Origin: Acidobacteriaceae bacterium
GTDB lineage: Bacteria; Acidobacteriota; Terriglobia; Terriglobales; Acidobacteriaceae
Direction of reading: 5' to 3'
DNA length: 32,555 nucleotides
Assembly (NCBI GenBank): GCA_003131315.1
Contig: PKUV01000163.1
Coordinates: forward strand, 233-32,787
In this document: in pieces, positions 12,708 through 20,744 of the stretch
Numbering within the stretch: position 1 is the stretch's first letter
Layout: each line of letters opens with the position of its first letter
Notes under the pieces: model-generated
What the model was told of the DNA's origin: nothing
The model's database searches: none
Seen by the model: only the letters and a program-made list of their open reading frames with translations
Translations under genes and position numbers: made by a program

Positions 12708-13187
12708 ATGACGTTGGGAGAAAAAATCCGCTACCTCCGAGAGGTCGAAGGTTCCCTCCGCGGCATGAATCGGCCCCTCACGCAACAGGAGTTGATGAAG
12801 GCCGTTGCAGCTGAGATCGGCAAGACCATCAGCCAGTCCTACCTCTCGCAGATCGAGCGCGGCAAGCGTCCGCATATGACGCAGTCGTCGCGCACTTTGC
12901 TGGCGCGTTTCTTCAAGGTGCACCCGGGCTTTCTGGTCGACGACCCCGAGGGCTACCACACGGAACTCGTCAGCGACCTGCGCACCACCGAAGGTCAGCT
13001 TGATGTCTGGCTGCTGCAAGGCTCGGAGCGTTTCGCCAGCGACCCGGAGGTGAGCGAAGTCCTGATCAAGGTCGCGCGTGACAAGGACACCCGGCGCTGC
13101 CATCCACCGGATCTTTGGCGACTGATCTTCTGGCTGAAGAAACGCACTCCGGAAGAATCTTCATCCTGCTTATTCTGCCCGCCATAG
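12708..13187 (+). CDS. XRE-family transcriptional regulator
   Basis: The helix-turn-helix spans roughly residues 3-65: GEKIRYLREVEG, LTQQELMKAV, the recognition-helix region ISQSYLSQIERGKR, then RTLLARFFKV. This is a Cro/CI-type DNA-binding domain, followed by a C-terminal part (HPGFLVDDPEGYHTEL...) without enzyme features. I chose ATG 12708; the open frame reaches back to TTG 12639, but that would place the promoter and dyads inside the gene. No Shine-Dalgarno is visible. The last 30 or so residues (from RRCHPPDLW) look unnatural and overlap the next gene by 73 nt. Dropping one C near 13090 would give an ending AAIHRIFGD with TGA at 13123, so a C-terminal frameshift is possible. Confidence 0.82.
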   Translation: MTLGEKIRYLREVEGSLRGMNRPLTQQELMKAVAAEIGKTISQSYLSQIERGKRPHMTQSSRTLLARFFKVHPGFLVDDPEGYHTELVSDLRTTEGQLDVWLLQGSERFASDPEVSEVLIKVARDKDTRRCHPPDLWRLIFWLKKRTPEESSSCLFCPP

Positions 13188-13561
13188 TCGGACCCGCCAT
13201 TGCCGCGTCCTTAGTGCCCGTCCCGGCCCTGCGCCTTTCGATGGCCCTCGTCGGGCTGATCGGATTCGCCACCATCGCCGCCGTCTGGAGCGGATTCCAC
13301 TACAGTTTTCTCCGCCACGGCGTCGAGATTCGCACCCTCGGTTTCCGCCTGCGTTCCATACCCAGGCAGCAGATTCAGAGCTACGCGCCCGAATCTTGGA
13401 GCGCGTTGCGCGGCTATGGCATTCGCGGCGTCGGCAACACCCGCGCCTACGTGTGGGGCAACAAGGTCGTCCACATCAAGACTTCGAACGGCGAGATTTT
13501 CCTCGGTCACAGCGATCCGCAACGCATCGTGCGCGATCTGGACCGAGTCATGAGTCACTAG
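13115..13561 (+). CDS. Membrane protein with PH-like C-terminal domain
   Basis: The 148-residue product has two N-terminal hydrophobic helices, IFILLILPAIVGPAIAASLV and LRLSMALVGLIGFATIAAVW. A soluble part follows (GVEIRTLGFRLRSIPRQQIQSY...VHIKTSNGEIFLGHSDPQRIVRDLDRVM) that resembles a small bacterial PH-like domain after a membrane hairpin. The fold call is by pattern only. The likely start is TTG 13115, with only a weak ribosome site. It overlaps the XRE reading frame, and the pair is probably co-transcribed. A regulator/membrane-sensor relation is possible but unproven. Confidence 0.68.
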   Translation: MATDLLAEETHSGRIFILLILPAIVGPAIAASLVPVPALRLSMALVGLIGFATIAAVWSGFHYSFLRHGVEIRTLGFRLRSIPRQQIQSYAPESWSALRGYGIRGVGNTRAYVWGNKVVHIKTSNGEIFLGHSDPQRIVRDLDRVMSH

Positions 13562-13710: not shown

Positions 13711-13749
13711 AAGCAACGATTTTTCAGGAGGCGATATGTTCGGCATAGC

Positions 13750-13790
13750 CGGGTGCCCCACGTCTCGCGCTTTTCGAGACGTGGGCCGCG
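13750..13790 (+). repeat. Covarying hairpin repeat, copy 2
   Basis: GGGTGCCC leads into an 11-bp perfect stem (13757-13767 with 13775-13785) around the loop CGCTTTT, followed by GGGCCGC. The same flanks and loop occur at 15854-15892 with different stem bases. Confidence 0.8.
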
Positions 13791-13990: not shown

Positions 13991-14056
13991 TAGCCCCTGA
14001 AAGACCTTGACTTTGCGAACGACTAACGACTAACGACCGATTCCAGGAGGTATCCC

Positions 14057-14236
14057 GTACAACAAGAAGTTCATCACGCCAGATCACTCGGCCTGTCCGT
14101 CGCTCTCGGAGCCGCCATGGGCGCGGCCATCGGCGCCGCCACCGGTCACATGAGCGTCTGGGTCGCCGCCGGAATCGCAGCCTACATCGCGATCGCGATC
14201 GTCGGCGGAGCATGGAACCGCGACCGCAATGGGTAA
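14057..14236 (+). CDS. Small glycine-zipper membrane protein, start codon apparently lost
   Basis: A 59-residue frame starts at a GTA codon (14057) exactly 6 nt after AGGAGG (14045-14050). No ATG, GTG or TTG is available in frame near that ribosome site; the first in-frame ATG is 14117. The product has two hydrophobic glycine-rich helices (SVALGAAMGAAIGAATGHM and VWVAAGIAAYIAIAIVGGAW) and a short basic end (NRDRNG). The next gene encodes a clear paralogue, so the frame is probably a real gene whose GTG or ATG has become GTA, or one that starts unusually. Function is unknown; its place upstream of pspA suggests an envelope role. Confidence 0.6.
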   Translation, partial: VQQEVHHARSLGLSVALGAAMGAAIGAATGHMSVWVAAGIAAYIAIAIVGGAWNRDRNG

Positions 14237-14288: not shown

Positions 14289-14657
14289 ATGAAACGGATC
14301 ATCGGAATCTCAATTGCAATTGGCGTCTCCATCGGTGCTGCGATAGGCCTGCTCTTCGCGCACGCCAATCTTCACGTCAGCATCGGTATTGCAGTGATCG
14401 CAATCGTGCTGGGAAGCGCACTCGCGCGCGCGCGGTTCGGCTCGAAGTGTGAAGGGTCGGCAGGAACGCGAACAGCGAACGACAAATCGCGAACGACCAA
14501 CGACGAACGACGAACGACCAACGACGAATTACACGAGGTGTCCTATGGCATTACTCGAACGCGTTTCCACCTTAGTCCGGGCCAACCTCAACGACCTGAT
14601 CGACAAAGCCGAGGAGCCCGACAAGATGATCAAGCAAGTCATCCTCGACATGCATAA
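14289..14657 (+). CDS. Small glycine-zipper membrane protein with run-on C-terminus
   Basis: ATG 14289 follows GAGGAG (14276-14281) with 7-nt spacing. Residues 1-50 form two hydrophobic helices (IIGISIAIGVSIGAAIGLLFA and VSIGIAVIAIVLGSALA) and resemble the preceding small protein. After about residue 52 the frame runs through a GAACGAC-type word array, giving RTANDKSRTTNDERRTTNDE. It then continues out of frame across the pspA start to 14657. The natural stop was probably lost, and the 70-residue tail is likely a by-product. Only the first 50 residues have family-like character. Confidence 0.6.
   Translation: MKRIIGISIAIGVSIGAAIGLLFAHANLHVSIGIAVIAIVLGSALARARFGSKCEGSAGTRTANDKSRTTNDERRTTNDELHEVSYGITRTRFHLSPGQPQRPDRQSRGARQDDQASHPRHA
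14462..14530. repeat. Degenerate CGAACGAC word array
   Basis: Roughly 70 bp of imperfect 7-8-mers (CGAACGAC, CAACGACG) ends 15 bp before the pspA start. A shorter related run (GAACGACTAACGACTAACGA) lies at 14017-14036, just before the other small membrane gene. Confidence 0.8.
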
Positions 14658-15204
14658 CTAGCTTTTGCAGGTCAAAACGCAGGTCGCCACCGCTATCGCC
14701 GACCAGCATCTGCTCGGAAAGAAGAAACTCGAAAACGACGACAAAATCCTGGAATGGATGCGCAAGGCCGAGCTCGCCGTCGACAAAAAGCACGACGACC
14801 TGGCCCGCGCCGCTCTGCTCCGCGTCGAAAGTTATCGCGACCTGAGCGCCAACTTCGCCCAACAGCTCGAAGACCAAAAAGCCCAGGTCGAGAACCTGAA
14901 ATCGGCCCTGCGCAATCTCGATCAGAAGTTGGCCGAGGCCAACGCCAAAGCCGATCTGCTGATCGCGCAGCACCGACGAGCGCGAGCCGCCACCCGAGCC
15001 ACCGACGCACAGTCCGGCATGAGCGCCAACGCCAAGTTCGAAACCTTCGACCGCATGAAGAAGAAAGTAGCCCGCGAAGAAGCCCTCGGAGGAGCCAAAT
15101 CCCAACTCCTGGCCGACGACGTAGAAGACCGCCTCGCCGCGCTGGAAAAAGAAGACCGCATCGAGCAGTTACTAACAGAGCTAAAGACGAAGCGGGGGGC
15201 GTAG
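14545..15204 (+). pseudogene. pspA: PspA/IM30 family protein interrupted by an in-frame amber codon
   Basis: PspA/IM30 proteins bind and protect the inner membrane as coiled-coil ESCRT-III-like assemblies. The frame starts at ATG 14545 after GAGGTG and would give 219 residues, a normal length. Its N-terminal helix is MALLERVSTLVRANLNDLID, then KAEEPDKMIKQVILDM. Codon 39 (14659-14661) is TAG, followed in the same frame by LLQVKTQVATAIADQ and the full coiled-coil body to TGA or equivalent at 15204. In the family this site is commonly Gln, so one CAG-to-TAG change explains it. Without readthrough only a 38-residue peptide is made, unless translation restarts at TTG 14665. The rest of the frame is undamaged, so the mutation is recent, suppressed, or a sequencing error. 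Confidence 0.85.
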
Positions 15205-19808: not shown

Positions 19809-20744
19809 ATGGAACATGCTCAGCGAATCCGCATCGGGACTGCCGGCTGGTCGTACAAAGACTGGGACGGGATTCTGTATCCGCCGGAAGTGACGCGGAA
19901 GAAAGTGCATCCGGTCGAATTTCTGGCGAGATTCTTCGACGTCATCGAAATCAACACGTCGTTTTATGGACACATACGCCCGGAACTGGGGCGACTGTGG
20001 TCGCGGAAGGCAGCGGCGGTCAATTCAAATTTTCTTTTCACCGCGAAGCTGCACCGGTCGTTCACACATTCTCCACTGGCGGTGATGGAACCAACTTCGG
20101 CGGCCAGCATCCGGCCGAATGACCTGGACGAACGACTTGCCCGCGAGGGTCTGGACTCGCTGGCCGCGGAAGGCAAGCTGGGCGCGCTGCTCATCCAGTT
20201 CCCCGTTTCGTTCAAGAACACCAGTCTGAACCGCGAATACCTGGAGCTGTTGCTGCGGCAGTTCATCGAGTATCCGCGAGTGGTAGAAGTTCGGCACGAG
20301 AGCTGGAACCAGCCGGAAACGATCGCCGAATTCATGCGCCACAACGTCGGTTTCTGCAACATCGATCAGCCGCTGCTGGGCCGTTCGCTCGCGCCGACCG
20401 AGCATGTCACGTCGGGCGTCGGATACGTCCGCCTGCACGGCCGCAACTACGAACAGTGGTTCGACAGCGACAACCGCGACGACCGTTACAACTATCTCTA
20501 CAAGCCCGCGGAATTGGAGAAGTGGAAAGAAAAAGTGGAGATCATCGCGCAGAAAGCCGAGTCGACGTTCGTGATTGCGAACAATCACTTTCAGGCCAAG
20601 GCCGCCGTGAACGCGCTGGAGCTAAGGCATCTGCTGGACGGAAAGAAAGTGCGCGCCCCGGAGACGCTGGTGAGACACTATCCCGAACTGAGGGAGATGG
20701 TTGAGGTCGAAGATACGGGAGGGAATTGTTCGCTGTTGGGGTGA
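19809..20744 (+). CDS. DUF72 (YecE-like) protein
   Basis: The 311-residue product shows the DUF72 TIM-barrel signature. It opens RIGTAGWSYKDWDGILYPP, continues with FDVIEINTSFYGHI, FLFTAKLHRSFTH and GALLIQFPVSF, then VVEVRHESWN and VGYVRLHGRNYEQW, and ends with FVIANNHFQAKAAVNALEL. The family is widespread; its biochemical role is not settled. The length is slightly above the usual 240-280 residues, with an acidic C-terminal extension. ATG 19809 is the start; its ribosome site is poor. It stands alone between a dispersed repeat and the chloride channel gene. Confidence 0.92.
   Translation: MEHAQRIRIGTAGWSYKDWDGILYPPEVTRKKVHPVEFLARFFDVIEINTSFYGHIRPELGRLWSRKAAAVNSNFLFTAKLHRSFTHSPLAVMEPTSAASIRPNDLDERLAREGLDSLAAEGKLGALLIQFPVSFKNTSLNREYLELLLRQFIEYPRVVEVRHESWNQPETIAEFMRHNVGFCNIDQPLLGRSLAPTEHVTSGVGYVRLHGRNYEQWFDSDNRDDRYNYLYKPAELEKWKEKVEIIAQKAESTFVIANNHFQAKAAVNALELRHLLDGKKVRAPETLVRHYPELREMVEVEDTGGNCSLLG

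Follow-up and report, generated by a model that had tools for sequence, protein, structure and literature searches.

An interrupted pspA gene and its surroundings

The window, i.e. the whole stretch of 32,555 nucleotides analysed here, derives from the 6.0 Mb draft genome of an Acidobacteriaceae bacterium (G000; 194 contigs, 99.69% complete, 2.41% contaminated). It carries a gene for PspA/IM30 that is interrupted by an amber codon, together with other genes of what in relatives is a common cassette. The features of this locus are the following.

12708–13187, forward strand: XRE-type regulator; similarity to the relatives stops at 13100 (131 of 167 residues), with an unrelated tail after that point
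13101–13123, no strand: deletion junction (approximate), with the regulator tail and the entire gene at the YuaF/NfeD position gone
13115–13561, forward strand: PH-type gene, retained, omega not raised, ending in TAG; weak match to bPH_5 (E 0.038, below the cut-off)
13736–13750, forward strand: flotillin remnant of about the first five codons, with a ribosome-binding sequence immediately upstream; remainder absent
13752–13787, forward strand: REP-like hairpin, sitting on the junction of the flotillin deletion
14057–14236, forward strand: gene for a 59-aa membrane protein, first codon GTA (GTG in 13 of 14 loci of relatives, ATG in 1 of 14)
14289–14657, forward strand: second small ORF for a membrane protein, sharing about 45% identity with the 59-aa protein across 51 positions and overrunning into pspA in another frame
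14545–15204, forward strand: pspA/IM30, probable pseudogene, 219 codons with TAG as codon 39
14659–14661, forward strand: premature TAG; Gln is encoded here by 100 of 100 aligned loci of relatives

The pspA frame starts with an ATG and is open beyond codon 39 as far as a terminal TAG at 15202–15204. A prior sequence-only reading had proposed that one TAG at codon 39 lies inside a PspA frame with both flanks in register, and this was borne out by the frame and its translation as well as by profile searches, in which residues 1–38 alone (E 5.8e-9) and the portion from 14665 alone (E 6.5e-20) each matched Pfam PspA_IM30. The read-through translation scored 120.3 bits against the PF04012 cut-off of 33.9, with a match across the entire domain, so that the protein belongs to PF04012 by its profile while its frame is interrupted by the TAG; no other PF04012 match was found in the window's genome. 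All 47 other near-invariant PspA positions retain their residue in the window. The first 39 residues hold 19 of the 48 near-invariant positions and include the membrane-binding helix of PspA.

Codon 39 was compared over 103 loci, of which 101 could be aligned (one being the window's own) and two gave no tblastn match. The relatives are nearly all Acidobacteriota MAGs, many of them named after bog, fen or palsa, and one is labelled Gammaproteobacteria. The equivalent position was Gln in 100 of 100 aligned loci of relatives (84 CAG and 16 CAA), representing fewer than 100 distinct genomes since the two source collections overlap; a stop thus replaces a conserved sense codon in one lineage. Among the 53 PF04012 matches listed from 101 relatives, an internal stop was seen solely in the window's copy and, judged from these sequences, the stop at codon 39 is lineage-specific within the sample.

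Damage to the cassette upstream of pspA

In relatives such as G017, G003, G012 and G015 the full cassette order is visible, in which an XRE-type regulator is followed by the membrane protein at the YuaF/NfeD position, then by a PH-type protein, a flotillin having Band_7 and Flot domains, the 59-aa membrane protein and finally pspA. No PH match was found in the cassette of G002. When the window was aligned to 15 loci of the genus, the flanks proved largely collinear (ccm genes, beta-propeller protein, epimerase and CAP), with gaps at the pspA cassette. A long single frame in G047 that resembled a flotillin–PspA fusion was rejected, being a scaffold gap of Ns.

The earlier claim that there was no other damage thus holds for the pspA frame itself but not for its surroundings, where the partners upstream have been disrupted or deleted. 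The gene at the YuaF/NfeD position had no match anywhere in the window's genome, and a flotillin of the cassette type had none elsewhere in it. A band 7/Flot protein hence stands beside pspA in the relatives but not in the window, whereas an NfeD protein was recognized in neither, with the protein at this position in the relatives lacking an NfeD match in Pfam or NCBIfam and the gene being absent from the window. What is left of the flotillin gene, namely a conserved ribosome site followed by about five codons, leads into the REP-like hairpin (DNA fold z −3.9). The core of this hairpin, TCGCGCTTTTCGA, occurs at window positions 13752 and 15855 and at position 817 of locus L126. It is present in 3 of the 183 loci compared, all from the window's genome and none among the loci of relatives; loci L001 and L156 repeat the copies of the window. 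The two copies in the window flank the pspA remnant in the same orientation.

Between the GTA of the gene for the 59-aa membrane protein and the preceding stop at 14024, no ATG, GTG or TTG lies in frame, and the next in-frame ATG of this gene is codon 21. Loss of this start codon may matter little, since G009 has no match to the 59-aa gene and yet an open pspA. The second small membrane ORF, at 14289–14657, is rich in glycine and alanine and traverses repeat DNA into pspA; in the relatives compared, no counterpart was seen in the spacer separating the 59-aa gene from pspA, and a similar extra copy lies upstream of the 59-aa gene in G015. Repeats of the CGAACGACCAACGACGAACGA type occur at 14470–14535 of the window and in other spacers; several relatives also have them ahead of pspA.

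Co-occurrence of pspA with its partner genes

The genus set comprised 24 genomes, including that of the window. Flotillin (E<1e-100) and the gene at the YuaF/NfeD position were found in an identical set of 16 of these, with weaker matches to the flotillin query (E 1e-7 to 1e-4, 19–23% identity) taken as other SPFH proteins. DNA of pspA was present in 17 of the 24, namely in 15 of the 16 flotillin-bearing genomes, in the window's genome and in G020; in G023, the one flotillin-bearing genome without pspA, the flotillin match reaches the contig edge, and in G005 pspA is divided between two contigs. The regulator was found in the 16 flotillin genomes, in the window's genome (cut at residue 131) and in G020.

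Only two of the 24 genomes therefore carry pspA without flotillin and the gene at the YuaF/NfeD position, these being the window's genome, with its nonsense codon, and G020, having an independent in-frame deletion of 87 bases (29 codons) in pspA, the shortened product of which may still be functional. A single deletion common to both was ruled out, as G020 has the full regulator and no PH match and the window the reverse. Damaged pspA was thus seen in 2 of 2 partner-less genomes versus 0 of 15 partnered ones (Fisher's exact p 0.007, a post hoc value that ignores kinship and counts the G020 deletion, which need not inactivate).

Regulator, membrane protein, flotillin and pspA were all absent from G004, G006, G007, G008, G011 and G022. 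The site itself could be seen empty in G008 and G004, in which the flanking genes share a contig and the cassette is missing. On the stretches compared, G007 and G022 showed ccmC alone and G006 showed ccmC together with the beta-propeller gene, while no close ccmC match was found in G011. Since G007, G008 and G011 are 75–88% complete, absence carries less weight for these, with the exception of G008, where the empty site was seen. At this cassette-less site (L179, 10618–11594) the PH-type and DUF4019 genes are adjacent, showing that the PH-type gene is not lost together with the cassette.

Of 101 relatives, 47 had PspA, at least 42 had flotillin (E<1e-30) and at least 40 had both, with at most 16 flotillin candidates per genome being scored. 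Among the family members listed, PspA without flotillin was seen in the window and G020 only. Outside of the family it was seen in G080 (below the cut-off), G081, G083, G089 and G100, and this flotillin is consequently not required by PspA everywhere. Single in-frame stops were also noted in other genes of the relatives, i.e. a TAG in the flotillin gene of G085 (G085:C8:16451-16933) and a TGA in ccmC of G009 (G009:C102:55038-55739) as well as in the flotillin gene of G014 (G014:C283:7090-7458).

Constraint on the window's branch

Selection was assessed using a custom-written codon branch model with codon 39 masked, and the likelihood ratio tests (LRTs) given here are uncorrected for multiple comparisons. 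For pspA in 15 taxa, omega was 0.126 on the window's branch versus 0.041 elsewhere (LRT 7.08). With G020 added, the 16-taxon values were 0.114 versus 0.044 (LRT 4.39), with a p of 0.036 that fails correction for 16 tips. The branch of G020 was also raised (0.181 versus 0.043, LRT 12.77), and taking the two jointly as foreground gave an LRT of 17.17; the remaining 14 tips had omega values of 0.014–0.087, the highest being that of G019 (LRT 2.96). Support in the gene tree close to the window was weak.

In eight control genes (ccmA, ccmB, ccmC, epimerase, CAP, the gene at 19809, DUF4019 and PH) the window was not raised (LRT ≤1.72), with less power in these as they covered 6 to 10 taxa. For the regulator, the window's omega was 0.199 versus 0.043 (LRT 6.41). 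The intact-cassette genomes G017 (LRT 7.45) and G003 (LRT 5.95) fell significantly below the mean for this gene, showing that omega varies among regulator branches anyway. G020 was raised also in the regulator (LRT 18.74), CAP (LRT 13.72) and ccmC (LRT 4.63), and the values for CAP and ccmC indicate that its rise is partly lineage-wide.

Constraint on the window's pspA is thus relaxed, as in a nonsense pseudogene. The decay signal is modest, since an omega of about 0.11–0.13 is still far below 1 and every near-invariant residue other than that at codon 39 has been kept. A simple mixture, with the background omega prior to release and an omega of 1 thereafter, would make about 7–9% of the window's branch free of constraint, and with omega well below 1 such a release would be recent.

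Origin and possible decoding of the internal stop

We consider it likely, with a probability of roughly 0.87, that the TAG arose recently as an inactivating mutation, in what is among the last still recognizable genes of a collapsing PspA–flotillin cassette. A fresh loss of this membrane-stress protein was one of the options raised at the outset, and it gains support here, the broken or deleted upstream partners making it the better explanation.

It is conceivable, if rather improbable, that the stop was instead selected. Orphan PspA would then be costly once its scaffold is lost, and each lineage would disable pspA separately, by the nonsense codon here, by the 29-codon deletion in G020 and by full deletion elsewhere, with the 38-residue peptide maybe being kept.

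Also improbable is a consensus or sequencing error, with the true genome having a sense codon at position 39. The assembly is a draft of 194 contigs, a single transition would be enough and the rest of the pspA frame is well conserved. Against such an error, the same cassette is damaged independently in flotillin, regulator and the start codon of the 59-aa gene, and omega is raised on the window's branch even with codon 39 masked. Stops are furthermore infrequent in this assembly, since none of 54 ABC_tran matches holds one and the single case among 77 Response_reg matches is a TGA in a 63-residue fragment.

Restart downstream of the stop, for example at TTG 14665 and perhaps coupled to the end of the ORF at 14289–14657, would give a working, N-terminally truncated PspA. 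This ORF does end 7 bases ahead of the TTG. A ribosome-binding sequence could not be seen by eye ahead of that codon, however, and the N-terminal part with its 19 near-invariant positions would be lost, making the proposed restart very unlikely.

Very unlikely, too, is suppression of the stop or read-through to full-length PspA, even though the frame is intact beyond the TAG. A search for a suppressor tRNA, suggested in the sequence-only reading, gave no CTA anticodon among the ARAGORN calls, which cover 49 out of 52 Rfam matches, a tRNA set that is incomplete, with no His tRNA called and 42 of 192 first-look candidates left unscored. Of the three uncalled Rfam matches, the one on contig C187 had GGG in its loop as read by eye, and that on C43 had Ns in the anticodon loop and was not readable. 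The third, a Leu-like tRNA match on C4 (L152; G000:C4:57986-58099), has 33 bases inserted into its anticodon loop, and its anticodon could not be read. Four ARAGORN tRNAs, for Leu, Ser, Tyr and Leu, are clustered at G000:C155:22589-23053 (L144); three have low Rfam scores, and the cluster is perhaps from a mobile element. The genome encodes two release factors, one with a PAT and one with an SPF motif, which we take to mark them as RF1 and RF2, and the presence of both argues against suppression, as does the raised omega of pspA in the window. Of 14 genes examined in the window, moreover, 5 terminate in TAG (lpxB, ccmE, the PH-type gene, pspA and the DUF4019 gene), agreeing with the initial view that wholesale recoding was improbable. 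Genome-wide recoding of TAG was ruled out by these TAG-ended genes, by RF1 and RF2 and by the finding of no internal TAG in any of the 131 ABC_tran (54) and Response_reg (77) matches.

DISCUSSION

The interrupted pspA gene appears to be a case of ordinary gene loss still in progress, not a trick of the genetic code. The simplest account is that a co-inherited membrane-stress cassette is being lost step by step and that the window represents a point between the intact and empty states. The partners, i.e. the regulator tail, the gene at the YuaF/NfeD position and flotillin, would have been lost first, an order that we infer, whereupon PspA would be deprived of its role or of its attachment to the membrane, constraint on pspA would fall and a stop would be tolerated. 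The predicted product is an N-terminal peptide of 38 residues and no working PspA.

An ordinary bacterial nonsense pseudogene has an early stop in an otherwise aligned frame, is lineage-specific and shows reduced constraint. The pspA gene of the window shares these properties, but differs in lying inside a multi-gene cassette loss of which both end states are found in the genus. In the literature text available to us, nothing on PspA/IM30 nonsense pseudogenes matched apart from a genome report on a fish pathogen.

As given in the available text of a survey in mSystems (2022; PMC9239133), the neighbours of PspA in Acidobacteriota are a band 7/FloT protein, NfeD and an HTH regulator, with a band7_Flot neighbour for 11 of 19 Acidobacteriota PspAs. 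The relatives studied here are similar to that network in combining an HTH-type regulator, a band 7/Flot protein and pspA, whereas the set in the window is broken and the protein at the NfeD position was not recognized as NfeD by Pfam or NCBIfam. A wider survey, in the portion accessible to us, also ties PspA to flotillin-type band-7 proteins (PMC11237479). In Bacillus subtilis, the localization of PspA depends on an SPFH protein and on membrane proteins encoded alongside it (the pspA-ydjGHI operon), according to the available sections of that study (PMC8581546). By analogy with this published dependence, it is plausible that PspA became useless after the loss of flotillin, reliance upon neighbours being a possible reason. 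The B. subtilis operon differs in gene order and membrane partners, and its decay is not described in those sections.

The stop itself is ordinary, and an isolated internal stop of this kind should be read together with its operon before recoding is considered. The value of the finding lies in the series seen within one genus, leading from an intact cassette, via partial loss with a damaged pspA, to an empty site. The order of loss is testable, and the series suggests that these bacteria retain PspA only where flotillin and its neighbours are retained as well.
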